This document shows, one piece after another, positions 4,861 to 49,745 of a stretch of DNA of 53,303 bases (its first letter is position 1; each line of letters starts with the position of its first letter). The stretch comes from Candidatus Bathyarchaeota archaeon (GTDB lineage Archaea > Thermoproteota > Bathyarchaeia > Bathyarchaeales > Bathycorpusculaceae): NCBI GenBank assembly GCA_003165195.1, contig PLSP01000097.1, forward strand, positions 9,788 through 63,090. The letters are read 5' to 3'. Both the position numbers and the translations under genes were made by a program. The notes under the pieces are model-generated. The model was not told where the DNA came from, did no database searches, and worked only from the letters and a program-made list of their open reading frames with translations.

Positions 4861-6574
4861 GGCCTTGTCCTTCCGCCTTTTTGGGCGGTTTGCACCTTAC
4901 TTTCTTAAAAACCTCTTTCCCCAACTAAAGGGTTCCCTGGAAAGGGGCAGAGTCAAAATCTACTCTGAAACCTACATGTCGCTAATGATATTTATCACTT
5001 TACTCACGCTTCCTGCATCTGCCCTAGGAATAACATTGCTTTTACTCTTTCATTCCATATATTTCCTGATCTTGCTGCCTGTTCCAGTCTTTGTATTAGT
5101 AGGTTTTCTTGTTGTGCCCATGAATAACGCCAGTGACCGATCATCGAATCTTGAACGGGAGATGCCTTTCGCCGCAGCATACATCAGCGTTATGGCATCC
5201 GGCGGAATCGCACCATACTCCAGCTTCAAACGCCTCTCGGAAGTGAACCTTATGCCAGCTATGCGTAAGGAAGCAGTAGATATTATAAAAGACGTGGAGG
5301 TTTTCGGCGTTGACCCGTTATCAGCGCTTGAAGTAGCTGCAAAGAAGACTCCGCTGGATATATTCAAGGACTTTCTCAGTGGTTACGCTTCAACCGTCAT
5401 AATAGGCGGCGACATAGGCCATTTTCTTGAGCGCAAAGCAGAGGACATATTCAAAGCCAGAGCCCTACGTGTCAAAGCAGCTGCGGAGCGGCTTGGAATG
5501 CTTCTCGAAACTTTCATTATTGTAATGGTCATGATGTCTCTTTGCTTCTACATCCTCTTTGCAGTAAGTCAAATTCAAGCTGGCAGCACCGCTGCAAGCT
5601 CAAACCCGGGAATGTACTCGGGAATTCTAATGTACACTTACATTTTCACGCCAATGCTCTCCGGTCTATTTATTTATCTTGCACATAGTATGCAGCCGAA
5701 AACTCCACTGGTCGAAATGCGTCCTTACAAGGTGTTTGGTGTATGCGCTGTACTAGCCACATTTGTCTTCCTGCTACTCACCAACTTCATGGGTGCAACT
5801 CAGTTGCCAATCTTCACAACTCTTCAAGCCTGGGGTGTTGACATGCCTACAGCAGTAGCTGTTGCCTTATTCATCTGCGCCGCTCCTGCCGCGATAATTC
5901 ACATACGACTTTCAAAAACAAAAACCAGCATGGAGCAAGGTGTCACCACCTTCCTAAGAGACCTCACTGAAGTCCGGAAAACAGGGCTGTCTCCTGAGCG
6001 ATGTATTGAAAGCCTCTCAAAACGAGATTACGGCGCCTTTAGCAAAGAAATTCGGAAAATCAGTTCCGAAATCTCCTGGGGTATCCCAGTAAAGCAGGTT
6101 ATGATGGATTTTGTCCATCGAACAAGAAGCTGGATGTCTCAGATCGTGATGTTCCTGCTAGTTGAAACTATCGATGTCGGAGGCGGAACCATTGCAATGA
6201 TTGAGTCTCTCGCCCGCTTCAACAACTTAACACAGGAAGTTGAGAAAGAAAAGAAAGAGTCAGTTCGCCCCTACGTCATGATGCCCTATTTAGCATCAAT
6301 CCTACTAGTAGCTACAACAATAATGATGATGAGTTTGACAACAGGTTTCGGTGCCACAGCCACTGGGGTCACTAGCTCGGCAAGTGCAGCAGGTAATGCA
6401 ATGGAAAAGACGGTATTCATCACAGCAGTGATCTTCAACAGCTTCCTCATCGGGATTGTTGCGGGAAAAATCAGCGACGAATCCATAGCATCAGGCTTCA
6501 AGCATGCTGCAATCCTCGTAATAATTTCGCTTGTAGCTGCAAAAGTGATCCCACAATTCATCCACATAGGTTAG
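4838..6574 (+). CDS. Pilus assembly membrane platform protein, TadC/FlaJ family
   Basis: Integral membrane platform on which the ATPase acts. It has 578 residues with two T2SSF-like domains: one in the first half (about 105-230, flanked by helices such as FITLLTLPASALGITLLLLF) and one in the second half (about 365-480), each followed by hydrophobic helices. The start is TTG 4838, because a strong ribosome binding site (GAGGAGGGG, 4822-4830) lies seven bases upstream, inside the end of the ATPase gene. This overlap suggests translational coupling. The duplicated domain layout is usual for archaeal FlaJ/TadC-type proteins. Confidence 0.93.
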   Translation: MPLLEKFEALSFRLFGRFAPYFLKNLFPQLKGSLERGRVKIYSETYMSLMIFITLLTLPASALGITLLLLFHSIYFLILLPVPVFVLVGFLVVPMNNASDRSSNLEREMPFAAAYISVMASGGIAPYSSFKRLSEVNLMPAMRKEAVDIIKDVEVFGVDPLSALEVAAKKTPLDIFKDFLSGYASTVIIGGDIGHFLERKAEDIFKARALRVKAAAERLGMLLETFIIVMVMMSLCFYILFAVSQIQAGSTAASSNPGMYSGILMYTYIFTPMLSGLFIYLAHSMQPKTPLVEMRPYKVFGVCAVLATFVFLLLTNFMGATQLPIFTTLQAWGVDMPTAVAVALFICAAPAAIIHIRLSKTKTSMEQGVTTFLRDLTEVRKTGLSPERCIESLSKRDYGAFSKEIRKISSEISWGIPVKQVMMDFVHRTRSWMSQIVMFLLVETIDVGGGTIAMIESLARFNNLTQEVEKEKKESVRPYVMMPYLASILLVATTIMMMSLTTGFGATATGVTSSASAAGNAMEKTVFITAVIFNSFLIGIVAGKISDESIASGFKHAAILVIISLVAAKVIPQFIHIG

Positions 6575-36692: not shown

Positions 36693-36740
36693 TCAGATTT
36701 TCTTTCCTTTCTCTTTTTCTTTTTTTTGTTTTCAAAGAAT
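36693..36740 (+). terminator. Pyrimidine/T-rich transcription terminator after the ESCRT-III gene
   Basis: Directly after the stop codon comes a run of T-rich blocks (TTTTCTTTCC, TCTTTTTCTTTTTTTTG). Archaeal RNA polymerase ends on such T tracts without a hairpin. Confidence 0.6.
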
Positions 36741-36764
36741 TCTATTTTTAACGGTTATTTAGAA

Positions 36765-36838
36765 GGTTAAGGGTTGTGTGGAACCATTCAGGAAGGTGAG
36801 AGAAGGGATTTAAACCTTAAATAACACAACCCATAACC
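36765..36838. repeat. 15-bp inverted repeat with 44-base loop
   Basis: GGTTAAGGGTTGTGT (36765-36779) and ACACAACCCATAACC (36824-36838) pair at 14 of 15 positions. The loop contains purine-rich AAGGTGAGAGAAGGG. It could be a structured RNA, a regulator site or the border of the element. No ORF covers it. Confidence 0.6.
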
Positions 36839-36991
36839 ATATAGATACTCAAACAGGTCAGCATAAAAAACTTTCGTTAAATTCTCTCATTTATTCCCCG
36901 AGTAAATGAATTAATTGAAAAAATTACTTGGCGACTAAAACATACCTGCTTAGCAGTAAAAGTTATATCAACAGCAGCTAAATAAGAGTTG

Positions 36992-37132
36992 ATGAAGCAG
37001 CCTAATCGAACTCTTCTTTGCCCAAAATGCTACGAAAAAATGAAACCTGTATGCAACAGCCAAGATATAATAATCTACTACCAGTGTCCAAAATGTGACA
37101 CACGCATTCTATACAGCACAGCAGGACATTAA
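36992..37132 (+). CDS. 46-residue zinc-ribbon protein
   Basis: Encodes two zinc knuckles, LCPKC (residues 9-13) and QCPKC (31-35), about 22 residues apart with an extra Cys at 21, a compact zinc-ribbon plan. It would likely act in nucleic-acid or protein contact. ATG 36992 has only a weak GAG upstream. The opposite-strand ORF over it is an artefact. The gene is small but the C-x2-C pairs are convincing. Confidence 0.6.
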   Translation: MKQPNRTLLCPKCYEKMKPVCNSQDIIIYYQCPKCDTRILYSTAGH

Positions 37133-37268
37133 TTTGGTTGGACAAGCACTCCATGCAGTTGGGCAATAAAAAGATGCTTAATTCTTCTGGGGACAACGCA
37201 ACATGGAATATCAGAAGTGTTCTAATAACTGGACTAATTAGTACAGTTTTGTTCTAAAACACAATAAA

Positions 37269-37278
37269 GTTTTATAAG
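37269..37278 (+). promoter_or_regulatory. TATA box of the integrase gene
   Basis: GTTTTATAAG lies 38-47 bases before the ATG at 37316. Upstream, TGTTCTA occurs at 37218 and 37250, and the palindrome ACTAATTAGT at 37233-37242, so the promoter is probably regulated. Confidence 0.6.
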
Positions 37279-37315
37279 CACCCTTTCACACCTACTAAAA
37301 TGTAAGTGATTAAGA

Positions 37316-38641
37316 ATGCAACAGTTCCAAATTGACAGAGTGGAAGACTGGCTCAACACTGTAGGCTTTAGCCACAGCAACAGCAAAAATACACGAGTAA
37401 ACTATCGAATCGCTCTAAACAAGTTCTTATCATTCATTGGCAAGACGGCAGACCAAATAATAAACGAGTACGAAGCCACAGACGACCGCCATTTCAAACA
37501 ACTCTACGGCGCCGCAATAAAAGCATGGATCGGCGAACTCCAAAAAACAGATTATGCCGCTCGAACAGTCAGCGGCCACATCAACGTTGTAAAATCCTTT
37601 TTCAAATACAATGATCTACCGCTAAGTTACCTTCCCACTGGAAACGGCCTTGTTGAATTTCACAACCGCGACATAAACCGCGAAGAAATAGCAGAAATAA
37701 TAAAAATTGCCGACTTCAGAGAAAAAGCGTTTTACTCGTTAATAGCTCAAGCAGGGCTGAGACCTGAAACTTTATGCAAACTACGAATTAGTGACTTTGA
37801 AAAACTCTTAGACCCCAACACACCAAACCCCTGCTTAATCACTGTGCGACAAGAAGCAACAAAAGGCGCCTACCAGGGCTATTTCACCTTTGCCCCAGAG
37901 GAAAGCATCAAACACCTCAAGAACTACTTGGAAAAACGAAAAAATCCATTAACAAAGGACAGTTGGCTTTTCTGTATGGTTGACGACGAATCTAAACCTG
38001 TTAGCCCCGGCATTTTCAGTCACACATTCCGACGTGTCGTTATGAACCTACAAAAAAACCATGTCTTAAGCTTCGAGACAAAAACCAAGAACCTCGATGT
38101 TAAAACAAAAGGCGGTGAATTGCTGCGGAAACAGGTTTCAAGAAACGAGCTTCGACTCTACAACCTCCGCAAATTCTTTAGGAAATATGCGGGGCAAGCT
38201 GGCTCTGACTACGTTAATTTCTGGATGGGTCACACAGCCAAATTAGGCGTTGATATACATTATTTCAGCCGTGATGTTGAATATCACCGTAAAATCTTTG
38301 TTGAAAAGGCGATGCCCTTCTTGATGATTGAAACGGCTCAGTTAACCTCTTTTGAAACTGTCTTAGAACTCAAGAATCAACTTAAAGCTAAAGATTCTGA
38401 GGTGCAAGAACTGAGAGAAAAAAACGTTGAGCTCTCCCAGAAAATCGACAAGGTAATTGAGATTATGGCATTAATCAGCCAACAATATAGTCCCCAATAT
38501 GTTGCCTACTTGAATGAGCAGGTGAAAACGGCATCGACTCGATTAGATGAAGAGAGGAAACAACAGCAAGAACGAGAGGCATCCTTGAGAGCAGAGTTAG
38601 AAGAAGCCCGAAGGAAGCAGAAAAACCAAAAAAAGGCTTAA
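37316..38641 (+). CDS. Tyrosine recombinase (integrase)
   Basis: 441 residues. The N-terminal SAM-like domain is at about 1-110. The catalytic part has Arg in AQAGLRPETLCKLR (about 141-154), a Lys/Arg motif NLRKFFRKYA in place of the usual H-x-x-R box, a second-box His in WMGHTAK, and the nucleophile Tyr in DIHYFSRD about nine residues later. The C-terminal 100 residues are a long coiled coil rich in Lys/Glu/Gln, unusual in length for archaeal integrases. It integrates or excises the element. It ends overlapping the convergent regulator gene by four bases. Confidence 0.9.
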   Translation: MQQFQIDRVEDWLNTVGFSHSNSKNTRVNYRIALNKFLSFIGKTADQIINEYEATDDRHFKQLYGAAIKAWIGELQKTDYAARTVSGHINVVKSFFKYNDLPLSYLPTGNGLVEFHNRDINREEIAEIIKIADFREKAFYSLIAQAGLRPETLCKLRISDFEKLLDPNTPNPCLITVRQEATKGAYQGYFTFAPEESIKHLKNYLEKRKNPLTKDSWLFCMVDDESKPVSPGIFSHTFRRVVMNLQKNHVLSFETKTKNLDVKTKGGELLRKQVSRNELRLYNLRKFFRKYAGQAGSDYVNFWMGHTAKLGVDIHYFSRDVEYHRKIFVEKAMPFLMIETAQLTSFETVLELKNQLKAKDSEVQELREKNVELSQKIDKVIEIMALISQQYSPQYVAYLNEQVKTASTRLDEERKQQQEREASLRAELEEARRKQKNQKKA

Positions 38642-39306
38642 ACCTTATTTCTCTGTTTTTCCAAAGCAAGCAAAATTATCATAACCTCCGTCATTTTTTC
38701 CATCAAACGATCGTGTTCTTGAGTAACCATGTGAATGGTGAGTGCGTTTTTTTCTTCGGCGGTAAGTTGGCTAAAATCGCTCACCATTCCCCCCTTTATG
38801 ATAATTCCCTTCTTAAAGAATTCTTCAAAAGCACACTTGAAATATGGTGAATTATAGTAAAGTGTTGGCAACTCAAAAAGAAAATCTGTTATTTGTTTCA
38901 GTTCGGCTCCCGTGACCGCGTCAAGGATGCTTTGAAGTTGATTCACTTTAGTTTTTTTAAGCAAAAAATCCTGTACCTCCGCTTGTCTGTTGTTACGAAT
39001 AAAATAATACCTTTCTTTTGGAGGACCTTTTGCATCAATTAATTTTTTTTTCAGTCGAAGATCGTCGAGTACTCTGGTAAGGGTATTATTGATACTGTTC
39101 TCACGGTAAGGATGCGCCAAACTTTGTTTATCAGCAAACTTAAGGAATATTTTTTGCCTTATCTCTTTCCACTGTAATTCAAAGTTAGGTGCGTGAATTA
39201 ACAGTCTTAAAACTTCATTTCGCACTTGGTCTGTTTTTTCACCATACTTCTGATTTTTTTCGCTTAAGAGTGATGGATTGTTTACTTTAAACGTGTTTTT
39301 TAGCAA
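38638..39306 (-). CDS. Helix-turn-helix regulator of the element
   Basis: 222 residues, Lys-rich. The N-terminal 95 residues look like a winged helix: VRNEVLRLLIHAPNFELQWKEIRQKI then SINNTLTRVLDDLRLKKKLIDAKGPPKERYYF, with recognition helix and wing. The rest is helical (ending in QEHDRLMEKMTEVMIILLALEKQRNK) and could mediate dimerisation. It is divergent from the replication genes with a perfect palindrome between them, the layout of a lysogeny-type repressor. The function is inferred from fold texture and location. Confidence 0.65.
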   Translation of the reverse strand: MLKNTFKVNNPSLLSEKNQKYGEKTDQVRNEVLRLLIHAPNFELQWKEIRQKIFLKFADKQSLAHPYRENSINNTLTRVLDDLRLKKKLIDAKGPPKERYYFIRNNRQAEVQDFLLKKTKVNQLQSILDAVTGAELKQITDFLFELPTLYYNSPYFKCAFEEFFKKGIIIKGGMVSDFSQLTAEEKNALTIHMVTQEHDRLMEKMTEVMIILLALEKQRNKV

Positions 39307-39334
39307 GTGTATCCCAGTTCACAGTATACATATT

Positions 39335-39351
39335 ATACACAACTTGTGTAT
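39335..39351. promoter_or_regulatory. 17-bp perfect palindromic operator
   Basis: ATACACAA-c-TTGTGTAT, arms of eight around one base. It lies directly at the TATA-like TTAAATA (39351-39357) of the rightward operon and next to the TATA-like sequence (TATAATAT on the minus strand) of the leftward regulator, so it can control both promoters. A related half-site (CAAGTGTAT) sits at 39304-39312. Confidence 0.75.
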
Positions 39352-39392
39352 TAAATAGTTTGCGGTGACTAAACTAAAGCCAATCAAACGAC

Positions 39393-39413
39393 GCTCGGAC
39401 AAAAACACCGAGC
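39393..39413 (+). promoter_or_regulatory. Hairpin in the leader of the replication operon
   Basis: GCTCGG (39393-39398) and CCGAGC (39408-39413) enclose nine bases. It ends 34 bases before the ATG at 39448 and falls in the predicted 5' leader. An outer CTAAAGC/GCTTTAG pair extends it. A role in translation control is possible. Confidence 0.5.
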
Positions 39414-39447
39414 TTTAGCAGAGCCGCAAGGCAAAGGATGAATCAAA

Positions 39448-39675
39448 ATGACCGTTTACGAACCCCAAAAAATTAATTTAATCCCCCCTGAATCTATTTA
39501 TAAACAAAATAATCCAAGCGAAGACTTGCTCTTTGCTGGAACAGTAATACAAGGCACCGTTGAAGACATCCACAGAATACGAGACTTCATTTTAACGCAG
39601 ACAAAAGCCCGATTGATCTATCAACGCAGAAGCTTAGCTTACTTGAAGATTGTTCCAGCAGAGGCGACGCAATAG
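39448..39675 (+). CDS. Small protein of the element, unknown function
   Basis: 75 residues: MTVYEPQKINLIPPESIYKQ then DLLFAGTVIQGTVEDIHRIRDFILTQTKARLIYQRRS. The second half reads as strand-helix-strand, like small nucleic-acid-binding domains. No family recognised. It is first of three tightly spaced rightward genes leading to the replicative ATPase (two-base gap). Confidence 0.65.
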   Translation: MTVYEPQKINLIPPESIYKQNNPSEDLLFAGTVIQGTVEDIHRIRDFILTQTKARLIYQRRSLAYLKIVPAEATQ

Positions 39676-39677
39676 TC

Positions 39678-40004
39678 ATGACTAAAACAATTCTACACCA
39701 TGGCTTATGCAAACAAGAAATCATCCCTCAATACGTAGGTACAGACTACTTTGCTTTCAATCACATACCATGCACAAACAAAGAACCTGAATACGGACAC
39801 TGTGAAATCATAAAAGTTCTTATCGATAACGACGGACGAATTATTTTTAATTTGAAATGCCAAAGATGCGGATTCACAGATGCATTAAAAACCTCGGCTA
39901 CTTTATGGGTTCTTGAAAATCGCGAAAAACCGCTCAAAGAAATCTTTCAACTTAGCCCAAACCTCAAAGAATGCATCGGACGCCACCGCTGGGATAACCT
40001 CTAA
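39678..40004 (+). CDS. Small Cys-containing protein of the element
   Basis: 108 residues. Four spread Cys with His (HGLCKQE, HIPCTNK, YGHCEI) and a closer pair KCQRCGF (about 60-65) suggest zinc binding. It lies two bases after the previous gene and its stop overlaps the start of the replicative ATPase by one base, so it is probably co-translated. Function unknown; possibly a zinc-binding primase accessory or regulator. Confidence 0.65.
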   Translation: MTKTILHHGLCKQEIIPQYVGTDYFAFNHIPCTNKEPEYGHCEIIKVLIDNDGRIIFNLKCQRCGFTDALKTSATLWVLENREKPLKEIFQLSPNLKECIGRHRWDNL

Positions 40005-41833
40005 TGTCAATAATCGCTGACATGAAACGGGCAGAAGCCCAAGCAAACGACCTGGCGGATGCTGCCAGAATAAAGGCACAGCAATGCGGCGAAGACACCC
40101 AAGAACGGGAAAGCCAAGCAGACCAAGCCATAAACCTCGTTTTATCTGAAGACATCCAGTTATTCCACGACCAGCACAATACGCCGTACGCTTGCATCAC
40201 CATATCTAACGCTTACGCAACTGACGCATTTAACTCGACTTCTGAAACTAAAAGGAGAGGCACACATAGAGAAATCATACGCCTACATGCCACGACTTTC
40301 AAGACATACGTTGCACACCTTATCTATGAAAACGACAACAAAGTAATCGGTCAAGAAGCCATCAACAGCGCCTTAAACGTACTACACTTTAAAGCATTGC
40401 AACGCGAACAACATATACTTTACAATCGTGTAGCCCCTGACCCATCCGGCGACGGTTCAATATGGATAGATACCGCTGACAATTCACGCAGAGCCTACCA
40501 TGTCACTAAAGACGGTTGGACCCTTGAATGTGATGTGCCTATTCTGTTTCGTTCTTATGAGCATCAGCAAGCACTCCCCGAAGCGGTAGCTGGCGGCGAT
40601 CCGTGGCAGCTACTGGAATATATGAATCTGGGTAAGACCCACCTTTTAGTTTCAGATAACCCGTTAAATGCGTCAGTCGCGTCAAAGTACAAGCAGAAAC
40701 AACTCTTATTCATGGTACACTGCGCAAGCTACTTCATACCTGATATACCCCACCCCATAAACATGATGTATGGATGCAAAGGAACATGGAAAAGCACCTC
40801 GCAGACTTTCATAAGAGGAATCTTTGACCCATCAAGCGTTCCGCTTCTGGGTTTTCCCCGAGACGAAAACGCCTTAACACAACAGTTAGAACACCACTGG
40901 ATGCCCATATACGACAACATAAGCACAACACCAAAATGGTTCAACGACGCACTATGCAGAGCTGTAACAGGAACAGGCCAAGAAACCCGGGCACTCTACA
41001 CAGACGACGACGTAATAATACGAAACTTCAAACGCTGCATAATGCTAAACGGAATCAACCTGCCCGCAGAAAAAGGCGATTTACTTGACCGAACAATACT
41101 TTATGAGACCATCCCCGACGCAGACGCACGTAAAACAGAGAAAGAATTGAAAGCAGCATATGAACAAGCAAGACCCGCCATATTGGGAGGCTTCTTAGAT
41201 ACACTTTCGAAAGCGCTGAAAATTAAAGAAACTGTTAAACCCACGAAGTTGTTTAGGCTTGCAGATTTTTCCTGTTGGGGATGCGCTCTGAGTGAAGCTT
41301 TAGGACATCAACAAACAGAGTTTATTGAAGCATCAGAAGATAATTTGCGAAGCCAAAATGAAGAAGCAGCACATGCTTCGCCTGTTGCGTCTGCATTCGT
41401 TGCGTACTGCAGCAAAAACTTAGAAGAACACGATATAAATAACCCGTACATTGACACTCCAACAAACATCTTTCATGAAGTCGAAGCTACAGCTCAAATT
41501 ATGCTTATCAGCACTAAAACGAATGGGTGGCCCAGAGGACCGCAACCGTTTACCCGTAAATTGAGTGAAGTCCGCGACGCCATTGCTGCTTTTGGCTGGT
41601 GCTACGAAGTTATCGCAAACGGCGCAAAACGTGACATGCATATCTGGTCAACAGCCAAAGCGAAACCGAAACCCATCCCAGAAGCAATAGAAAACAAAGA
41701 AACCAAGAAACGGTACTGCAGGGATGAATGCAGAAACGCCAACACAAACGACTGCATCAAAGGCACATACTGCTATACAGGAGAAGTTCCGCTGGATTGC
41801 ACACGCTACGATTACAAGGGAGCTTTCGAGTAA
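40004..41833 (+). CDS. SF3/D5-like replicative ATPase of the element
   Basis: 609 residues. A P-loop GCKGTWKST occurs at 257-265, with Walker B-type PIYDN (Asp304), then RAVTGTGQETRALYTDDD, and NGINLPAEKGDLLDRTI as a sensor/Arg-finger region. This order resembles phage and plasmid primase-helicases and related helicase-like ATPases. The N-terminal 200 residues show no primase motif I recognise. The C-terminus ends with a Cys cluster (YCRDECRNANTNDC, CYTGEVPLDC) that could bind zinc. It probably unwinds the element's origin, which may be the repeat-rich stretch directly downstream. Confidence 0.8.
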   Translation: MSIIADMKRAEAQANDLADAARIKAQQCGEDTQERESQADQAINLVLSEDIQLFHDQHNTPYACITISNAYATDAFNSTSETKRRGTHREIIRLHATTFKTYVAHLIYENDNKVIGQEAINSALNVLHFKALQREQHILYNRVAPDPSGDGSIWIDTADNSRRAYHVTKDGWTLECDVPILFRSYEHQQALPEAVAGGDPWQLLEYMNLGKTHLLVSDNPLNASVASKYKQKQLLFMVHCASYFIPDIPHPINMMYGCKGTWKSTSQTFIRGIFDPSSVPLLGFPRDENALTQQLEHHWMPIYDNISTTPKWFNDALCRAVTGTGQETRALYTDDDVIIRNFKRCIMLNGINLPAEKGDLLDRTILYETIPDADARKTEKELKAAYEQARPAILGGFLDTLSKALKIKETVKPTKLFRLADFSCWGCALSEALGHQQTEFIEASEDNLRSQNEEAAHASPVASAFVAYCSKNLEEHDINNPYIDTPTNIFHEVEATAQIMLISTKTNGWPRGPQPFTRKLSEVRDAIAAFGWCYEVIANGAKRDMHIWSTAKAKPKPIPEAIENKETKKRYCRDECRNANTNDCIKGTYCYTGEVPLDCTRYDYKGAFE

Positions 41834-42161
41834 CAGTTTTCCCTCACCTTTTTCTTTCAGAAGTCACGTAAATCGCGTAAGTCGCGTAAAGTTTTCAATC
41901 TAAGAGAACGAGTTTTTCTTTTCTATTCCACTAACTGCTACAGCGAAACAATTAGTTAACATCACTATACATCACAAAATCTGACAAAACCTTACACCTA
42001 TAGAAAAATGATACAAAACGATACACTTTCAGGGTTTTTGTGTGGTTTAGGCTGTTTGGTTGCTCTGTTTGTTGCAGTTAAAGCCGAATAGGTTGTCTTA
42101 AAATGGCTTAGAAACTGCGAGAAATTGCAAGTTTTCAGGGACATTTCAGACATCAAGAGAC
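41834..42161. repeat. Repeat-rich non-coding block, candidate origin
   Basis: First, three CGTA units spaced nine bases (41867, 41876, 41885, with GTCACG/TCGCG context). Second, 41961-42030 divides into decamers, the first four with AC at positions 4-5 (ATCACTATAC, ATCACAAAAT, CTGACAAAAC, CTTACACCTA) and two later with ATACA. Third, GAAACTGCGA and GAAATTGCAA at 42111 and 42121 are exactly ten apart, followed by ACAT at 42141, 42150 and 42160. There is no ORF. Position after the ATPase suggests iterons. Confidence 0.65.
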
Positions 42162-42467
42162 ATGGGGAAATATGGTTTGTGTGCAGTTAACGTTAAAGTC
42201 ATAAAGAAACGGATGAGATCAGCAAATTTTAAGGTTCAGCGTCGACGCCGAAGGTTGATTGAACTCTATAATACTGTCCGACGTTTTAGTGTTGGCAAGG
42301 CTGCTTTGGCTTTAGATGTGTCTCGCTGGACAGTTGAACGTGACTTGGCTTTTCTACGTGAACATGACTTGCTAACGCCTAAAAGAAATGCCGTCGCACC
42401 GTTTGAAGTGTTGGAGACCCAGAGCGAATTTTGCGCTCGGTTCAACAAAGCACACACATCATGGTAA
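42162..42467 (+). CDS. Helix-turn-helix protein
   Basis: 101 residues with a very basic N-terminus (VQRRRRRLIELY) and an HTH: FSVGKAALALDVSRWTVERDLAFLREHDLL (about 42-71). DNA-binding regulator of the element or its replication. ATG 42162 is used; ATG 42213 (MRSANF) would remove the first 17 residues and is equally possible. Its stop is directly adjacent to the stop of the convergent GNAT gene. Confidence 0.7.
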   Translation: MGKYGLCAVNVKVIKKRMRSANFKVQRRRRRLIELYNTVRRFSVGKAALALDVSRWTVERDLAFLREHDLLTPKRNAVAPFEVLETQSEFCARFNKAHTSW

Positions 42468-42983
42468 TTACTCTTCAACAATCTTTCTGTAAAGCCAAAC
42501 CCGTTTGTCTGCAAACAGGGACGCACCAGGCTTAAAGCCAATTTGGCTATAGAATTTCACCTTAGTCTCTTTTGCCTCTAAGACTACGTATCGGCAACCT
42601 ATTTGTTCGGACAACTCCAATGCAAGACCTGTAGCCCAGTTTGCGAGATAAGTTCCTATGTCATTGTGTCGCCAATTGTTATCGACGGCAAGTCTGCCTA
42701 TGAACAAGCATGGGTAAAAAGGCAACGCTATGTCTTCTTCATCTTCCTTTAGTCTGAGTGCATGTATGCTCGACATAGCTAAAGTAATGTAACCTACTAA
42801 TGTTTCATCGTAAAAAAATAAGTAAGTGATTCCATGTTTGTCTTTCTGATATTTCTTTGCCTCATTGTCATTGTGAATAAAGTCATTGCATCCGCCGTCA
42901 TCATCATTATCGCAATTAAAGGTGGAAAAATCGTCTCTTAGCTCTAATTTTCTAAAACTGATTTTTTGGAAATCGATAGCCAT
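42468..42983 (-). CDS. GNAT acetyltransferase, TacT-like toxin candidate
   Basis: 171 residues. It starts like TacT/AtaT-type toxins: a Phe/Cys-rich strand FSTFNCDNDDDGGCNDFIHNDNEAKKYQ then GITYLFFYDETLVGYITLAMSSI. The CoA-binding part is RLAVDNNWRHNDIGTYL, with an Asp where the first motif Gly usually is. The catalytic-type Tyr is in KFYSQIGF. Toxic GNATs acetylate aminoacyl-tRNA; this is inferred from the family, not shown. A 46-residue gene lies 19 bases upstream on the same strand, as expected for an antitoxin. Confidence 0.8.
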   Translation of the reverse strand: MAIDFQKISFRKLELRDDFSTFNCDNDDDGGCNDFIHNDNEAKKYQKDKHGITYLFFYDETLVGYITLAMSSIHALRLKEDEEDIALPFYPCLFIGRLAVDNNWRHNDIGTYLANWATGLALELSEQIGCRYVVLEAKETKVKFYSQIGFKPGASLFADKRVWLYRKIVEE

Positions 42984-43002
42984 GTGCCGAACTTCAAATG
43001 AG

Positions 43003-43143
43003 TTACTTTAGAGGATTTTTCCTGTATAACGCTCGGCATGCTTCTAAACTGGCCTTCTCAGCGCCGCTAAGAGGCTTCTTATCCTGCTTCTCAAATTTTG
43101 CTGCTTCTTTACCTTCTAAGGCAGGAATTCGACTTGGCAACAT
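43003..43143 (-). CDS. 46-residue antitoxin-like protein upstream of the GNAT gene
   Basis: MLPSRIPALEGKEAAKFEKQ then DKKPLSGAEKASLEACRALYRKNPLK. The R-I-P-x-L-x-G-K-x-A-x-x-F pattern is the kind found in short archaeal antitoxins that fold on their toxin. ATG 43143 has AAAGG about ten bases upstream. It ends 19 bases before the GNAT start and likely forms an operon with it. No DNA-binding domain is visible, so regulation may come from elsewhere. Confidence 0.6.
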   Translation of the reverse strand: MLPSRIPALEGKEAAKFEKQDKKPLSGAEKASLEACRALYRKNPLK

Positions 43144-43408
43144 TTTACATCATCCTTTTTTCAAAGAACACAATTACTACAACAACAGAGTCGGTTTAAT
43201 AAATTTTGTGTAGCCAGTACACATAAAAAGCGATTTTTTACACATTATTACACATTTACGCCTGTTTTCACAGGAGTCACGCTGTTTACACTGAAATTTA
43301 CGGTTTTCACGCTTAAAAATATTTGCAGTATTAACGGATACTCATTTTTCATGGTTTGTTTATTCATTCAAGCTTTACTTTTTACACCATTTTTTCACCT
43401 AAATTCTT
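43144..43408. repeat. Phased T-T-A/C-AC array upstream of 43409
   Basis: Eight short TTAC/TTCAC/GTCAC cores lie at 43238-43312. The A bases fall at 43240, 43250, 43258, 43270, 43279, 43288, 43300 and 43309: spacings 8-12, averaging ten. Examples are TTACAC, TTTACGC and TTTTCACGC. The rest of the gap has an AT-rich promoter area and no ORF. Confidence 0.5.
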
Positions 43409-43855
43409 GTGAGAGCTTTTTCTAAAAAACGAGTCAACGAGGACAGAGTCAACCATTTTTTAGAGCGGGTTATCGGCCATTTAGAGGCAAGGGGCACGCT
43501 AAAGCCTACATTGATAAAATACCGTTATTTGGGGCTTAAAGCTGCGGTTAAGTGTCTTCTTGGATCAGATTTTATTGAGGCATTGGATTATCAAACATGC
43601 TTCGAAACATTGAGAGACCACAACACAGTCCAGTCCTGGCTTGACTCGCTACGGTTAGAGGCAGAGGGCAGAATCCCAAAGGGTTACTCACTGGAAGACT
43701 TACGCGCCGCAAAGCTGACAGAAGTCAAAGAGGACGCAGACCGACTAGACCATGTAGCCATTGACAAAAAAGAATATGATCGGTTACTGTCAACTGAAAA
43801 GAAGTATTGGCAGAATGTCAGAGCTCGCGACGGCTGGGCCGCTGATTTAATTTAA
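43409..43855 (+). CDS. Hypothetical helical protein of the element
   Basis: 148 residues from GTG 43409, mostly charged helices (VNHFLERVIGHLEARGTLKPTLIKYRYLGLKAAVKCLLG, then ADRLDHVAIDKKEYDRLL). The first 80 residues may be an integrase-like SAM domain, since HLEARG-TLKP-YRYLGLKAAVKCLLG recalls recombinase N-terminal helices, but no catalytic part follows. Function unknown. It is preceded by the phased array and followed after 11 bases by the next gene. Confidence 0.6.
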   Translation: MRAFSKKRVNEDRVNHFLERVIGHLEARGTLKPTLIKYRYLGLKAAVKCLLGSDFIEALDYQTCFETLRDHNTVQSWLDSLRLEAEGRIPKGYSLEDLRAAKLTEVKEDADRLDHVAIDKKEYDRLLSTEKKYWQNVRARDGWAADLI

Positions 43856-43866
43856 CCCAAAAGGTC

Positions 43867-44298
43867 ATGCAAAGGACTTTTCAAACTGTTTTTACCGTTC
43901 AAGGCAGCCTTGAAACTCCAACAATCCAGATAAACGATAAACGAAAGAAAGGGCGCCCAGGCTTTTTTTTAACTGCACTGGAACTCAAAGAAGCCATAAA
44001 ATATTACCTCACAACCAACGAGAAAGAAAAACAACCGCTCCTAAACAAATACGGCACAAAAAAGCTTAGGCATGCAAAAGCTATCTGCAGCCTCGACATG
44101 GGCACTCGAGGCGCAGTTTTCCGTCACATCTGCGCTTTCCACGGACGCGATTATCTTGTTTACAGTTGGACCGGCGCCGAGGACGGAGTTAGAATTCGCT
44201 GTTTTGCACCTTCCGGATGCACTCTAAACACTCATCATAGTGGTTATCTGTTTGCGCCTTCGCCGGTTGTTGGTTTGGATCCTTGTGGCACAGAATAA
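43867..44298 (+). CDS. Hypothetical basic protein of the element
   Basis: 143 residues. It begins MQRTFQTVFTVQGSLETPTIQIN and has a basic stretch KRKKGRPGFF (AT-hook-like RKKGRPGF), then LTTNEKEKQPLLNKYG, and a Cys/His-rich end (CSLDMG, HICAFHGRD, RIRCFAPSGC). It could be DNA-binding. No family recognised. It lies 11 bases after the previous gene in one operon. Confidence 0.6.
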   Translation: MQRTFQTVFTVQGSLETPTIQINDKRKKGRPGFFLTALELKEAIKYYLTTNEKEKQPLLNKYGTKKLRHAKAICSLDMGTRGAVFRHICAFHGRDYLVYSWTGAEDGVRIRCFAPSGCTLNTHHSGYLFAPSPVVGLDPCGTE

Positions 44299-44323
44299 CT
44301 TTCAAGTAAAAATTAAGTGTGGA

Positions 44324-44385
44324 TGGACCTGTCAAGGCAAACAAGCAAAGAGGTAAAGGAGGAAATTCCAGAAGAAACAGGTCCA
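44324..44385. repeat. 9-bp perfect inverted repeat, 44-base loop
   Basis: TGGACCTGT (44324-44332) pairs with ACAGGTCCA (44377-44385), and flanking GTG/CAC extend the stem imperfectly. The loop holds AGGTAAAGGAGGAAATT, a ribosome-binding-site-like run. A weak 23-residue ORF (44324 region) overlaps it. It could be a structured leader or small RNA. Confidence 0.5.
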
Positions 44386-44450
44386 CCCACATAAACTTAG
44401 GTTTTTTAAACAGACAACGGGGAAAAAACCCAAGTGTACAGTGAACACCT

Positions 44451-44576
44451 ATGAGTCAAACAATCCCACCAGAGGAAAACAGAACTTGCGAGGAATTAAG
44501 TTCCGACCCTAACGTTTTGGGCAAAAAATTCACTATCGGCAACTCGCTTTTAGGCAAAAAACTCGGTGAAATCTAA
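44451..44576 (+). CDS. 41-residue protein of the element
   Basis: MSQTIPPEENRTCEELSSDP then NVLGKKFTIGNSLLGKKLGEI. The second half has two similar pieces, VLGKKFTIG and LLGKKLGEI, around a hinge. Codon use looks normal and it sits between two same-strand genes. No ribosome binding site stands out. Reality is moderately likely; function unknown. Confidence 0.4.
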   Translation: MSQTIPPEENRTCEELSSDPNVLGKKFTIGNSLLGKKLGEI

Positions 44577-44624
44577 CCACCACACAAACAACCCAGTCAA
44601 GACAAATAGAGGTGAAAAAAAACC

Positions 44625-44915
44625 ATGATTAAAAACACGGATGAAAACTCAATTGAATCTCCAACCATCACAGGCCGCAACGTCAACGTCGTTCCAGAAC
44701 ACGATTACTTTTTAGTCTTCAAAAACGAAGAATCAAAACAGAGTTGGCTAAAAACTGTTCCAGAAGCAAAACTCTTCACTAACCAACACAAAAGCGAGTA
44801 CTGTCTATTGGAAACGTTGTTCCATAATTGTTGCTTGATGACGCTACAAGCCCCCATTGCTGAAGCAACGGAACAAGGTTTCGAACCTGAAAAATATCAA
44901 TCATGTAACTGTTAG
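44625..44915 (+). CDS. Hypothetical protein of the element
   Basis: 96 residues, MIKNTDENSIESPTITGRNV then HDYFLVFKNEESKQSWLKTV and a Cys/Gln-rich end (QSCNC). GAGGTG lies about twelve bases before ATG. The middle could be a small alpha/beta domain. No family recognised. It is the last rightward gene before a convergent set. Confidence 0.6.
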   Translation: MIKNTDENSIESPTITGRNVNVVPEHDYFLVFKNEESKQSWLKTVPEAKLFTNQHKSEYCLLETLFHNCCLMTLQAPIAEATEQGFEPEKYQSCNC

Positions 44916-44967
44916 GAGACGGCATAACAACAATCATTAACTTCGGAGAATAGGGTTTTGTTTAGGT

Positions 44968-45333
44968 TTAACCAAAAATTAGGTAGCCGCCAAGCACCAT
45001 AAAAAAGATTCCAAACACTAAAAAGAAAAACGATAACTCCGTTAGGAGTACAGCGCCTAATCCTGAAAGAAGCACTAACGCGCCTGTAACTTGGAATTTT
45101 CTGGTTGTTTTCCTTTCAATGAAATCAATTAATTTTATGAAGATACTATAATCCGTGGGCATTGGAGTTTTGGTTTGTTTTTGGTTGTTGTATTTGATGT
45201 TGCATGTTGGGCAGTAAAACTCTGTTTCTGTGTTGTCATCTAACATTGAGAATTCGTCTTGTCCTATTAGAACGCCTTCGTTGCTGCATTGGGGACATTC
45301 TTGATATTGTCTTTCTGTTAATTTGGCGCTCAT
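44968..45333 (-). CDS. Membrane protein with N-terminal zinc ribbon
   Basis: 121 residues. A zinc ribbon is formed by ECPQC (12-16) and YCPTC (about 40-44). After a polar linker, two hydrophobic helices (VTGALVLLSGLGAVLL and SFFFLVFGIFFMVLGGYLIF) make a hairpin anchor. This type of zinc-ribbon membrane protein is common in archaea, with no assigned role. It is the downstream member of a leftward group with the next two genes. Confidence 0.7.
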   Translation of the reverse strand: MSAKLTERQYQECPQCSNEGVLIGQDEFSMLDDNTETEFYCPTCNIKYNNQKQTKTPMPTDYSIFIKLIDFIERKTTRKFQVTGALVLLSGLGAVLLTELSFFFLVFGIFFMVLGGYLIFG

Positions 45334-45386
45334 CGTTTGTTTTCTCCCAGTTAACTATTAGGCAGTTATGCTTATTTGGATTTGGT

Positions 45387-45797
45387 TTATGTGCCGAGGA
45401 GTTGATATGTGTTTTCGAGTGCGGTGATACGATCATGTATTTGCCGTACGATTCCGACTGATCCGTGGGCGTTGTAGGTCCATTGCTCCATGTCAAGTTG
45501 CCAGTATTTCGGTACTGCTTTAACGTCGCATACGTGGCTGAAACCTGATCCTTCCACGTTACGTTCGATTGTGTTTGTTAATTCTACGAAGCGGAAGTTT
45601 TCTGCACCGTTCAAATTGAATGTGTAGCCAGGCCACCAGTTCCAGTGAATATATGCTGGGCTGCCACCGCTGTTTATTAAGCCTGCTCGTCCATCTGCTC
45701 TCAAAGTGAGGGTGCTTACGGGTGCCAAGGCGTCCCATGTGTTGTCCCATACGCCGTCTACAAGATGTTGTGTGGGGTTGCATCGTTGATTCGCCAC
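45387..45797 (-). CDS. Trp/Asn-rich hypothetical protein of the element
   Basis: About 136 residues from GTG 45797. It has a Trp- and Asn-rich middle (YIHWNWWPGYTFNLNGAENF) of beta texture and a short coiled-coil end (IVRQIHDRITALENTYQLLGT). It recalls structural proteins of viruses by texture only. The frame stays open to 45893, but that part overlaps the SWIM motif gene in another frame, so I start at the first start codon after the SWIM stop. No family recognised. Confidence 0.55.
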   Translation of the reverse strand: MANQRCNPTQHLVDGVWDNTWDALAPVSTLTLRADGRAGLINSGGSPAYIHWNWWPGYTFNLNGAENFRFVELTNTIERNVEGSGFSHVCDVKAVPKYWQLDMEQWTYNAHGSVGIVRQIHDRITALENTYQLLGT

Positions 45798-45802
45798 GGT
45801 TT

Positions 45803-46063
45803 CTATCCATGCGTTGAGGTCGCTTTGATAATCTCGACTGCGTAGATGTGTTTGCATTTTACATGGCGGTAAGTGTGATCTGGGCACTCGCAAGCTAAGG
45901 CGCCGTTTACTCGGTTGACAATATACTGTTTGTCGCTTGTTTCCGATTTGACGGTGTAAAGTTGGCTGTTGATTTTTCTTACGTTTTGGGTTATGATGTA
46001 GCCGCGATCCATGCGGTTCAAGATTATGATGGGTTCAATTTTTTCTTGTTTTGCTGTTATCAT
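45803..46063 (-). CDS. SWIM zinc-finger protein
   Basis: 86 residues. The SWIM motif C-x-C-x(n)-C-x-H is visible as CECPDHTYRHVKCKH (about 59-73), preceded by strands ending VNRVNGAL. SWIM fingers bind DNA or proteins, often near recombination enzymes. The start is ATG 46063. A TATA-like box (TTTATAAG on the minus strand) lies near 46120, beside a palindrome with GTAACT arms. The gene ends five bases before the presumed start of the Trp-rich protein gene. Confidence 0.75.
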   Translation of the reverse strand: MITAKQEKIEPIIILNRMDRGYIITQNVRKINSQLYTVKSETSDKQYIVNRVNGALACECPDHTYRHVKCKHIYAVEIIKATSTHG

Positions 46064-46121
46064 TTTCTTTAAGCCTCTTTTAGCTCTTGTAACTACTGTA
46101 GATGCAACAATACTTATAAAC

Positions 46122-46138
46122 GTAACTGTTATAGTTAC
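46122..46138. promoter_or_regulatory. GTAACT palindrome near the SWIM gene promoter
   Basis: GTAACT and AGTTAC surround GTTAT. Further copies are GTAACT at 46089 and AGTTAC at 46147. This sits at the upstream edge of the SWIM gene promoter and of the rightward gene at 46189, so it is a likely operator. Confidence 0.55.
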
Positions 46139-46166
46139 AAAGTCTTAGTTACAGTTAAATATGGCA

Positions 46167-46181
46167 TAGAACACTATTCTA
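46167..46181. promoter_or_regulatory. TAGAA-TTCTA inverted repeat
   Basis: TAGAA and TTCTA surround CACTA, just before the small gene at 46189. The same half-sites recur at 46376-46396 and 46930-46944. Confidence 0.45.
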
Positions 46182-46188
46182 AAAGAGG

Positions 46189-46362
46189 CTGAACCAAACG
46201 AGAGAGTATATACTAACAGATCAAGAACGGCAAATAATTCAAAAATACCTGGACTCTGGCGAAAAACTTGAAGGATTCAGAATGCTTGTTAGTCGATGCC
46301 GAAGCATAGAAACCGTAAACACTGACCTCGAACTAATCAAGCAGTTCTTAGCCAAACTATAG
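46189..46362 (+). CDS. 57-residue charged helical protein
   Basis: Translates as TREYILTDQERQIIQKYLDS then GEKLEGFRMLVSRCRSIETV and a DLELIKQFLAKL end. This resembles a recurrent type of small archaeal proteins (YxLTDxERxIIxxYLxxGEKLEGF). The recognisable part begins after 46195, but no ATG, GTG or TTG is upstream; CTG 46189 is the best guess. The AT box TTAAATAT (46154-46161) is about 30 bases upstream, so the mRNA may be nearly leaderless. Function unknown. Confidence 0.6.
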   Translation: MNQTREYILTDQERQIIQKYLDSGEKLEGFRMLVSRCRSIETVNTDLELIKQFLAKL

Positions 46363-46375
46363 GCGAATAAATGTA

Positions 46376-46396
46376 ATGTTCTACATTTTAGAACAT
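46376..46396. promoter_or_regulatory. Perfect palindrome ATGTTCTA-cattt-TAGAACAT
   Basis: 8-bp arms, five-base spacer, about 93 bases before the membrane HTH gene at 46489 and just before its AT-rich promoter (ACTATATGAAC near 46420). A likely operator. Confidence 0.6.
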
Positions 46397-46488
46397 CCAG
46401 ATACCTCTAAAAACTATATGAACAAAATTGTACTGGTAGCTGGACTTATATGCAGGCGCCATGGTTTATCCTCTGAGGCTGCTGAGGG

Positions 46489-46935
46489 TTGAATGGGAAC
46501 GATGAAACAGATCTTGAATATGCTCTACGGGGAAAAGCTTGGAAGGTTTATTGGTTCCTTCTAAAAACAGGCGGCCCAGTCGGAGTCCGCGAAGTTCAGC
46601 GGTCGTTGCATTTCAGCAGTCCTAGCATCGCTTTTCATCATTTGGAACAGCTACGTGAATTAGGCTTAGTTGAGAAGCAAGAAATCGGCGGTCACTACGT
46701 GCTTGTCGGCCAAGTTAAAATTGGCGTACTGAGACACTTTGTGAAGCTTGGCAAACTGCTGTTTCCGCGGTATTTCTTCTACGCTCTCTTTTCCACTCTG
46801 TTCTATATCTTCTACATAGCCGTCCTATTCACGGGGTTCAGCCGTGACAACCTTTTCATTATCTCGTTTGGAGCAATCGTATGCGCAATATTCTGGTACG
46901 AGGCATACCGTGTGTGGACAATGAGGCCATTCTAA
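46489..46935 (+). CDS. Membrane-anchored winged-helix regulator
   Basis: 148 residues. The wHTH covers residues 13-75: AWKVYWFLLKTGGPVGVREVQRSLHFSSPSIAFHHLEQLRELGLVEK, with a wing GGHYVLV. Two hydrophobic helices follow (FFYALFSTLFYIFYIAVLF and LFIISFGAIVCAIFWYEAY). Such membrane-tethered ArsR-like proteins are frequent in archaea; they may sense the membrane. The start is TTG 46489, as a stop lies six bases upstream in frame; GAGGG is directly before. Palindromes with TTCTA/TAGAA arms lie upstream and at its stop codon. Confidence 0.8.
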   Translation: MNGNDETDLEYALRGKAWKVYWFLLKTGGPVGVREVQRSLHFSSPSIAFHHLEQLRELGLVEKQEIGGHYVLVGQVKIGVLRHFVKLGKLLFPRYFFYALFSTLFYIFYIAVLFTGFSRDNLFIISFGAIVCAIFWYEAYRVWTMRPF

Positions 46936-47013: not shown

Positions 47014-47142
47014 ATGGTGCAGAAAGAAGTAAATAAAAAAATGAAAGTTTACGGAACTGTTCAAGTGCTTTCAGCCATAGTGCTGGTTAGCATGATTTAT
47101 ATTTTAGGCTCCTCGCCGCTTCTAAACCCTCCTGCCGCCTGA
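47014..47142 (+). pseudogene. Small membrane protein gene truncated by an insertion
   Basis: 42 residues: a basic start (MVQKEVNKKMKVYG), one membrane helix (VLSAIVLVSMIYIL) and SSPLLNPPAA before the stop. AAGGAG is about ten bases before ATG. The stop codon uses two bases of the inserted element. If the element and one copy of the target duplication are removed, the frame continues with SLGL and then stops, so the protein has lost four residues and probably still functions. Confidence 0.65.
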
Positions 47143-47455
47143 TACTGTTAACTTAAGTTACCTTTTCTTCGTCAGGAACGATCTTAACCGTTATACCTTT
47201 CCTGCTTCCGAATGCTAAGGCAGGAAGTAAATGAGAAACCATCTGTTCACAAGTACAAGGAAACACACGACCAGTAGCAATTGCTAAGCTCCAACCGGTC
47301 CCATCTTTCCTAAACTTATTGATGCGTTTCTCGCCCTTCATAATATAAATCGTACACTCATCATTCTTCATTTAAGTCAAACTCAATCTAATTAGTCCTC
47401 TCCACACTTGAGCTAATCAAGCTTTGGATGTAGGGTAACTTAACTTAACAGTATC
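47141..47455. mobile_element. 315-bp MITE-like insertion carrying one small gene
   Basis: Ends are 22-bp terminal inverted repeats (47141-47162, beginning GATACTGTTAA, and 47434-47455) that differ at one position. The 9-bp duplication CTGCCGCCT flanks it at 47132-47140 and 47456-47464. There is no transposase; the only ORF is a 72-residue gene. This is a non-autonomous element moved by a transposase elsewhere. Confidence 0.92.
47153..47371 (-). CDS. 72-residue cargo protein of the MITE-like element
   Basis: MKNDECTIYIMKGEKRINKF then RKDGTGWSLAIATGRVFPCTCEQMVSHLLPAL. It contains a C-x-C (PCTCEQ) and a basic, beta-prone start. The stop codon lies inside the left terminal repeat, so the coding sequence is bound to the element. 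No family recognised. Its presence in the element rather than in the chromosome follows from the repeats and target duplication around it. Confidence 0.7.
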   Translation of the reverse strand: MKNDECTIYIMKGEKRINKFRKDGTGWSLAIATGRVFPCTCEQMVSHLLPALAFGSRKGITVKIVPDEEKVT

Positions 47456-47464
47456 CTGCCGCCT

Positions 47465-48459: not shown

Positions 48460-48969
48460 TTGTCCGGGTCTCAAGTGTTTCTGGATATGAATCTTTGTAT
48501 CGTAAACCTTAATAAACACTACACTCAATACATACGATCAACTGTACACGTGCTTTACATGTGTGCAATAGCAGGTCTGGGGGGACTTGTAATAAAAAGA
48601 GAATTAAGTACCAATAAACCGTTGAATGTGCTTGAAAAAATTGAGCAGAGTCTTGAGAGGCTTAATGAGAAAATGGAAGTTATGATTGAGATCCAGAAGA
48701 ACGGGGAGAGCCAAAAGCCTATTGGTTTGCCTGATGCGCCACTGGATGTTATGACGTTGTTATCTATGCCTGATCACTTACGTAAAACTGCAATGGTCAT
48801 TTGCAGGTGCAACCGCGCAACGGCGGAGGAAATATCTGCTCAAACCAGCCGCGCCCGGGCTGTGGAAAGCGCTTATCTTAATCAGCTAGTGATTATGGGT
48901 TACCTCAAAAAAGAACGCCATGGCAGAAAAGCCTATTTCTTTATTGACAAGGAAGGACAGAGCCCATGA
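48460..48969 (+). CDS. HTH regulator paired with a MinD-type ATPase
   Basis: The region from about residue 57 on is protein-like: VLEKIEQSLERLNEKMEVMIEI (coiled coil), then LPDAPLDVMTLLSMPDHLRKTAMVICRCNRATAEEISAQTSRARAVESAYLNQLVIMGYLKKE, a wHTH. The first 56 residues look weak, so the true start could be GTG 48628. It overlaps the next gene by four bases (ATGA) and so is translated with the MinD-type ATPase, as in a partition-like module. In this role it might bind DNA and recruit the ATPase, but that is inferred. Confidence 0.75.
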   Translation: MSGSQVFLDMNLCIVNLNKHYTQYIRSTVHVLYMCAIAGLGGLVIKRELSTNKPLNVLEKIEQSLERLNEKMEVMIEIQKNGESQKPIGLPDAPLDVMTLLSMPDHLRKTAMVICRCNRATAEEISAQTSRARAVESAYLNQLVIMGYLKKERHGRKAYFFIDKEGQSP

Positions 48970-49745
48970 GCAAAATAATTGCAGTCCACAGCTACAAAGG
49001 CGGCACCGGCAAAACCCTGATGAGCGTCAACTTGGCAGCCACATTTGCGAAGGCAGGCAAAAAAGTCTGCGTCTTCGACCTTGACTTCCGCGCGCCAAGC
49101 CTCTTCGCCATCCTAAAAGCTGAAAATAGCGAGTTCTGGCTAAACGACTACCTAAACAATGTGTACGACATAAACAAAGTCCTCGTCGACTTAAGCAGCC
49201 GCCTAACGGGCGAAGGTAAATTCTACGCAGCACTAGCCAACCCGGGAACTGAAGCCATCCGTGATATGTCCTCAAAAGACCGCAAATGGGAAATGCGTGC
49301 CCTCGGAAGACTCCTATCGTTGAGGGAAACCTTGCTACGAGATCAAAAATTCGACTACATAGTCTTTGACACAAGCCCAGGACTTCAGTACTCATCTATA
49401 AACGCTATAGTCGCAGCTGATTTCGTGGTGGTTGCAACAACAGGCGACCGCTCAGATGTAGACGGAACCAAACGCATGCTAAATGAACTCTATAACCTCT
49501 TCGAAAAGAAAACTGGCCTTGTCTTAAACAAAGTGCTTGACCCAACAGCAACCGCGAAAAAAGCCGAATGGAGCGCCAAAATCAAAACAAACTACCATGT
49601 GCCACTGCTGGGTATTTTACCGTGCTTCTGCGAAATACTGCGAGCCGAAGGCAACCTAATCTTCGTCCAAGACAAACCTGACCACCCATTCACTAAAATC
49701 ATGGGCGAAATGGCTAGAAAAATAGAAAATAACGAAGTCAACTAA
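48966..49745 (+). CDS. ParA/MinD-family ATPase
   Basis: 259 residues. The deviant Walker A is YKGGTGKT (10-17) with a signature Lys11, Walker A' DLDFRAPS near 38-45, and Walker B FDYIVFDTSPG near 132-142. The length and TGDRSDVDGTKRML region fit MinD/ParA. It hydrolyses ATP as a dimer on membrane or DNA for positioning or partition. It is coupled to an HTH gene upstream. It lacks a clear C-terminal amphipathic membrane helix (ending MARKIENNEVN), which argues for ParA-like DNA binding. Confidence 0.92.
   Translation: MSKIIAVHSYKGGTGKTLMSVNLAATFAKAGKKVCVFDLDFRAPSLFAILKAENSEFWLNDYLNNVYDINKVLVDLSSRLTGEGKFYAALANPGTEAIRDMSSKDRKWEMRALGRLLSLRETLLRDQKFDYIVFDTSPGLQYSSINAIVAADFVVVATTGDRSDVDGTKRMLNELYNLFEKKTGLVLNKVLDPTATAKKAEWSAKIKTNYHVPLLGILPCFCEILRAEGNLIFVQDKPDHPFTKIMGEMARKIENNEVN

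Follow-up and report, generated by a model that had tools for sequence, protein, structure and literature searches.

The window analysed in this study is a stretch of 53,303 nucleotides of a Candidatus Bathyarchaeota archaeon whose draft genome comprises 3.16 Mb in 171 contigs (G000; G, C and L numbers are our handles for genomes, contigs and loci). It holds, on contig C59, a 315-bp element lying in the remnant of a longer gene, and the features of the locus are as follows.

46489..46935, plus strand: neighbour gene with weak HTH matches and a hydrophobic C-terminal part, which anchors the locus
47014..47142, plus strand: 42-codon stub, N-terminal part of a PF09826 beta-propeller protein with the remainder missing (from relatives and flank comparison)
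47132..47140, plus strand: left target-duplication copy, 9 bp, CTGCCGCCT (read from the sequence)
47141..47455, no strand: whole cassette, 315 bp, no transposase found inside
47141..47162, plus strand: left terminal inverted repeat, 22 bp, GATACTGTTAACTTAAGTTACC (sequence and end search)
47153..47371, minus strand: cargo gene, 72 codons, conserved Bathyarchaeia small protein (ORF and homology)
47434..47455, minus strand: right terminal inverted repeat, 22 bp, GGTAACTTAACTTAACAGTATC (minus strand GATACTGTTAAGTTAAGTTACC; sequence and end search)
47456..47464, plus strand: right target-duplication copy, 9 bp, CTGCCGCCT (read from the sequence)

The element, with its ends, its duplication and its gene, is real. 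The initial annotation had reported 22-bp terminal inverted repeats and a 9-bp duplication, and both are read directly in the sequence; the two ends differ at 1 of 22 positions and the duplication is perfect, which fits the fairly recent insertion that it had proposed. Gapless extension of the arms gives 29-nt arms at 86% identity, having run into the target duplications. No transposase was found in the element by tblastn with the family transposase described below, and most of its length is taken up by the conserved 72-codon gene.

The target of the insertion is better understood from relatives. The flank has a match in 26 of the 31 other genomes of the genus, with identities of 69–76% apart from two short matches, and in relatives the counterpart of the gene at 46489..46935 precedes the beta-propeller gene. 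The frame is open through the insertion site in 18 of 19 relatives' loci, the 19th (G017) having given no usable hit, and it continues for 487–535 codons, which are lower bounds as the fetched stretches end there; in G012, where the gene was read to its end, it has 663 codons and a PF09826 beta-propeller match that spans the full length. In the window no part of this protein beyond the first 42 codons was matched, and a beta-propeller paralogue lies on C16 in a 740-codon frame. The insertion had been said to replace four C-terminal residues of a small membrane protein. The literal join holds, as removal of the element and one duplication yields PPAASLGL followed by a stop in place of the present PPAA and stop, the TGA being created at the junction of duplication and element, but the stub corresponds to the N-terminus of a long beta-propeller protein and the small membrane protein was a misreading. 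No empty site with a single CTGCCGCCT turned up among the relatives, whose flanks are too diverged for a site to be placed at the base level. As neither duplication copy is damaged, the sequence immediately to the right predates the insertion, and since that sequence was already present, the beta-propeller gene was probably truncated before the element came. Elsewhere in the window, about 9.7 kb (36700–46400) part genes that are adjacent in two relatives (here at 36.0–36.7 kb and 46.5 kb); this stretch includes an integrase-like gene at 37316–38641, and it is probably an integrated island adjoining the locus of the element. Just right of the element, at 48966–49745, a ParA-like gene lies by HTH genes.

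At up to 3 mismatches the 22-bp end occurs at 5 places in the 3.16-Mb genome, against 0 for the reversed-pattern control, and at up to 2 mismatches it is present in 12 of 162 genomes of the order. A 15-bp core was found at 66 places in 32 of 256 genomes of the class (mostly drafts, one per species), with 1 place for the reversed control. The scripted scan covered 62 of the 66 core places, leaving out three in G067 and one in G221, and the duplication was tested at 72 family ends from 61 stretches, an inverted partner being defined by the first 10 bases with up to 2 mismatches. A perfect direct repeat with an inverted partner was present at exactly 9 bp for 22 of the 72 ends, a count in which some elements are represented by both ends and three loci are orthologous, at 6, 7, 8, 10 or 11 bp for none of the 72, and in none of nine controls in which the repeat was displaced outwards. 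Under loose criteria (one mismatch in the repeat, up to 3 in the end) 29 of 72 ends were partnered, against 0–2 in the controls. The remaining 43 were partnerless even so, and many of them are solitary, decayed or have a partner beyond the fetched stretch. Two pairings were set aside from the element counts, although their ends remain among the 72: the single further end in the host genome on C27, whose pairing is probably due to chance (one mismatch in the duplication and a poor second end), and G142:C58, with a perfect duplication, imperfect ends and a weak transposase-like fragment. At L086 (5071–8273) the inverted match of the GATACTG ends runs outwards into the flanks, so the ends belong to a longer inverted repeat and not to a simple insertion.

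Five elements with perfect 9-bp duplications bear an IS6-type transposase: G013:C47 (4374 bp), G016:C154 (5835 bp), G084:C206 (5979 bp), G119:C8 (6048 bp) and, in the host genome, G000:C68 (2224 bp). A sixth transposase-bearing element, G041:C39 (7117 bp), has a duplication with one mismatch, and G035:C44, outside the 72-end set, has inverted ends around a transposase and no duplication. Scored with the NCBIfam IS6 model NF033587 (cut-off 125 bits), 6 of 7 transposases lie above the cut-off (129.6, 132.9, 128.8, 138.2, 141.7 and 132.0 bits) and that of G016 lies just below it at 123.8, the set comprising the five perfect-duplication elements, one from G035 and one from an 8-bp sister group, with G041:C39 left out. 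What we take, by motif, to be the D, D and E positions are identical in all 7 aligned transposases, a set that partly differs from the one scored, and the DDE domain of the G013 protein is of the IS240 type. Homologues with E values of 1e-20 or lower are present in 22 of 162 genomes of the order, and 17 of 72,556 plasmid records match the transposase at 24–30% identity, many of them labelled IS6 family transposase. The motif CTGTT is present in most family ends, not in those of G000:C68, and the tip is GA; IS6 ends are described as beginning with GG and containing CTGTT, and archaeal members with GA tips are on record. Because the duplication is 9 bp and the 8-bp duplication of IS6 was not seen at any of the ends, we call the family only IS6-like.

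In the 171-contig draft of the host no transposase-bearing element with exactly the cassette's ends was found. The nearest, G000:C68, matches those of the 315-bp element at 17 of 22 positions; of the host's other two IS6-like genes, one (C75) has ends of the 8-bp type and one (C39) is at the edge of a contig. Defence-like genes, of restriction-modification or other kinds, are carried by 4 of 6 transposase-bearing elements, and by 3 of the 5 with perfect duplications: an N6-methyltransferase, a specificity subunit and a DUF3800 protein in G016; GmrSD and a UPF0175-domain protein in G084; an AAA/DUF4143 protein, a methyltransferase and a specificity subunit in G119; and a methyltransferase in G041:C39. 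The G013 cargo is a NYN protein that was matched in PADLOC at E 3e-12, and the 263-residue ORF of G000:C68 has no PADLOC or Pfam match. IS6-like transposases are also found in elements of about 3.4 kb with GGTTCTG-type ends and 8-bp duplications (L069 208–3661 and L073 333–3742), a sister group with room for cargo. At G119:C8 (L069 3662–3671 / L081 8842) a GGTTCTG-type element (CTTTTGAA, 8 bp) abuts a GATACTG-type element (CTTTTGAAG, 9 bp), and it seems that one inserted right at the duplication of the other.

Eight elements combine a perfect duplication with no detected transposase, three orthologous copies being counted once.

315-bp element of the window, 47141–47455: duplication CTGCCGCCT, 72-codon gene
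G000:C16, 16038–16782 (745 bp): same ends, duplication GATAATGCA, a different cargo of 176 residues with a sub-threshold 8xMP hit
G022:C117 (2156 bp): ORFs of 61, 90 and 430 residues
G041:C5 (706 bp): zinc-ribbon protein
G057:C1, same locus in G048 and G067 (1735 bp): DUF3800 protein
G080:C148 (789 bp)
G085:C77 (1177 bp)
Virus-borne element (1040 bp): 217-residue ORF

For 4 of the 8 (G057, G080, G085 and the virus) good agreement of the second end is limited to roughly its first 10 bases. Three further transposase-less elements have a one-mismatch duplication, namely G108:C17, G004:C144 and G075:C1, the last with a DNA methyltransferase bearing a Mrr-like domain. A PADLOC match was obtained in 3 of these 11 (G075, G004 and, at E 1e-7, G085) and none, at E 0.01, for the main ORFs of the 315-bp element, G000:C16, G022 and G057, the scan having left out G041:C5, G080, G108 and the virus element. 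An empty site for G000:C16 was sought among 31 genus relatives and not found, the left flank being matched in one of them over 27 bp only. Several RNA features were observed in or beside these elements. A DUF3800-VI RNA motif (RF02915; L031 9876–9933, minus strand) lies by the DUF3800 gene inside the G057:C1 cassette, and a TPP riboswitch (L031 10416–10526) lies just outside it. Three otherwise different elements have a subterminal tRNA-like gene (L028 4368–4445, plus; L085 5686–5763, plus; L031 8758–8833, minus) with an encoded CCA and the anticodon loop CTACTAA; ARAGORN called tRNA-Ser(ACU) in 2 of the 3, and the Rfam tRNA scores were 53.3, 36.9 and 27.7 bits, the last below threshold. An A34 anticodon is odd for archaea. 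No match to this gene was found in the viral contigs.

We propose to read the 315-bp element as a mobile insertion cassette from an IS6-like transposon lineage of Bathyarchaeia, that is, a captured host gene between transposase-recognition ends, without a transposase of its own, and we give this reading a probability of about 0.85. The cassette probably moved in trans. An IS6-type (IS240-like) zinc-ribbon DDE transposase, encoded elsewhere by a transposon with matching ends, would bind the cassette ends; staggered cuts at insertion would give rise to the 9-bp duplication; and the cassette would have entered just after codon 42 of what remained of the beta-propeller gene. The cargo itself would have been acquired by capture between two ends. 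Two inverted repeats, a target-site duplication and the lack of a transposase gene are features that the element shares with mobile insertion cassettes, as is an apparently intact passenger gene unrelated to transposition. The suggestion of a gene-carrying MITE family was partly right: there is a gene-carrying non-autonomous family, which has transposase-bearing members as well, but the label MITE is wrong and mobile insertion cassette fits better.

The alternative that retains most weight, though we regard it as rather unlikely, is that the cassette is an internal-deletion derivative, a larger gene-carrying transposon that lost its transposase as classic MITEs do. Since transposase-bearing members carry cargo beside the transposase, such a deletion could leave an end, a gene and an end. 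However, no transposase-bearing element with the 72-residue cargo was seen. Moreover, in pairwise comparison (E 1e-5) most matching pairs of elements share only 24–36 bp, at the ends, the exceptions being the tRNA-like segment and a 108-bp stretch in which the methyltransferase sequences of G075:C1 and G004:C144 are related; that elements outside the transposase-bearing group share little but their ends fits separate captures. In G041:C5 (L029 7232, 7553 and 7937) there are two left-type ends in the same orientation, one of them internal, and one right end, which looks like the stepwise addition of a second unit of end and gene.

As had been noted at the outset, the only good gene in the cassette is the 72-residue ORF, with its stop codon within the left repeat. 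One may ask whether it is a relic carried along and not a functional cargo gene, since not only the stop but also its last codons come from that terminal repeat, and an ORF of equal length arises in 104 of 2000 mononucleotide shuffles of the element, so that length alone proves nothing. It is homology, not length, that marks the ORF as a likely gene. The protein has matches in 22 of 256 class genomes, its own included, a soft count in that 3 of the 22 match only at E 0.003–0.008, and 14 columns are invariant across 19 aligned sequences (the window copy among them). Against its nearest homologue, on G000:C47, with 77% protein identity, dN/dS is 0.22 over 69 codons (dN 0.126, dS 0.562), although most of this divergence may predate capture. 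The predicted structure is a confident fold of a small beta sheet and one helix (pLDDT 86.9), and Foldseek gave no PDB match below E 0.5; weak hits to HipS/HipA-like proteins were considered and are not convincing. No family was found for the protein in Pfam, NCBIfam, PADLOC or PHROGs, and no match in phage records. Conservation, selection and fold together make a relic unlikely in our view, and the protein is presumably expressed. No end pair surrounds the homologues in the 21 loci and 9 longer stretches scanned, where three loose single-end matches occur (two in L146 and one in L108). The G000:C47 homologue was considered as a second copy of the element and rejected, for it lies at a contig edge without such ends.

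It is also conceivable, but very improbable, that an unrelated recombinase moved this DNA and that the IS6-like genes within similar ends are passengers. A duplication of 9 bp is not usual for IS6, for which the review of the family gives 8 bp (PMC7986276); yet the five perfect-duplication transposase-bearing elements have no gene type in common other than the transposase, and the archaeal IS6 entries ISH15 and ISPfu5 are recorded at 9 bp (PMC6807381 Table 5). That the repeats are due to chance or are ordinary intergenic sequence, as the presence of only one full copy of the exact element in the genome might suggest, is refuted by the reversed-pattern and shifted controls and by the further elements with the same ends and 9-bp duplication.

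When IMG/VR was searched for exact matches to the 22-bp end in slightly degenerate form, one contig was hit, a tailed-virus contig of 14,195 bp with matches to terminase, portal, major head and integrase. The element of 1040 bp lies at 4389–5428, between terminase and portal, with a perfect duplication and, for a query of the G000:C68 type only, no transposase; its 217-residue protein looks, from its sequence, to be secreted or membrane-anchored. Its two ends differ, one being of the type of the 315-bp element and the other identical over 21 bp to an end on a 3.7-kb contig of G094, which also bears a transposase gene resembling that of G000:C68 (78% identical). A search for a duplication or partner of the G094 end found none, and the end recurs in G094 on another contig, which has no transposase match. 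Four further viral contigs have a single family end each, with no partner in a search that covered three of them in part (L243 among them). It is tempting to suppose that the Bathyarchaeia maintain a shared-end cassette economy in which IS6-type 9-bp transposons provide the transposase for many unrelated cassettes, built by capturing host or defence genes, that ride archaeal viruses between hosts; we hold this tentatively, as somewhat short of an even chance. If true, it would be an archaeal counterpart of mobile insertion cassette or integron cassette mobility. According to a 2019 survey of thaumarchaeal elements, composite DNA transposons with passenger genes beside the transposase were undetected in archaea (PMC6563490). 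The Bathyarchaeia, a single archaeal class, have several IS6-like transposons whose cargo is defence-like, as well as cassettes that lack a transposase and carry other genes; one of these cassettes lies in a tailed-virus contig. This is a plausible gene-moving route for uncultured archaea, and it provides a defined set of ends for finding more.

Among known systems, the IS6 family resembles ours in that the transposases hit the IS6 model and CTGTT resembles the IS6 end motif (PMC7986276). There is also archaeal precedent, in the ISPfu, ISH and ISSis clades, for GA tips and 9-bp duplications, so that both traits, though unusual, have been seen before (PMC6807381 Table 5). The Bathyarchaeia transposons differ in size, being 2.2–6 kb with cargo as against 671–853 bp in the archaeal IS6 list, and their transposases have 295–313 residues with an N-terminal zinc ribbon as against 206–237 residues (PMC6807381). 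The same source argues that archaeal members should be placed outside the IS6/IS26 family, which is a further reason to say IS6-like. In the IS6 review ISDsp3 is the sole member with a passenger gene that is named (PMC7986276), and there are two IS6-family MITEs, MITEBth2 and MITEHarch3, without an intervening ORF (PMC7986276; names from PMC6807381); these are likewise short and transposase-less with IS6-like ends, whereas the 315-bp element carries a conserved gene. In the literature searched, made up mostly of non-subscription papers, none was recognised as describing cassettes of this kind from Bathyarchaeia or from IS6 elements of archaea, and a word search of a paper on Bathyarchaeia viruses (PMC10848311) gave no match. 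Tn7-like defence-cargo transposons are similar in that the transposase-bearing Bathyarchaeia relatives carry restriction-modification and other defence-like cargo. Tn7-like elements rely on the Tn7 machinery gene set, as against the single IS6-type transposase of the Bathyarchaeia elements. IS231, which has given rise to a further point of comparison, belongs to the IS4 family. The closest described system is the mobile insertion cassette, as in IS231/MIC231 of Bacillus cereus, which has inverted ends, a target duplication, a passenger gene in place of the transposase and a cognate transposon family (PMC3913671, PMC3129680). Unlike MIC231, the Bathyarchaeia family is archaeal, has IS6-like ends, a 9-bp duplication and several unrelated cargoes, and its movement in trans is a proposal.
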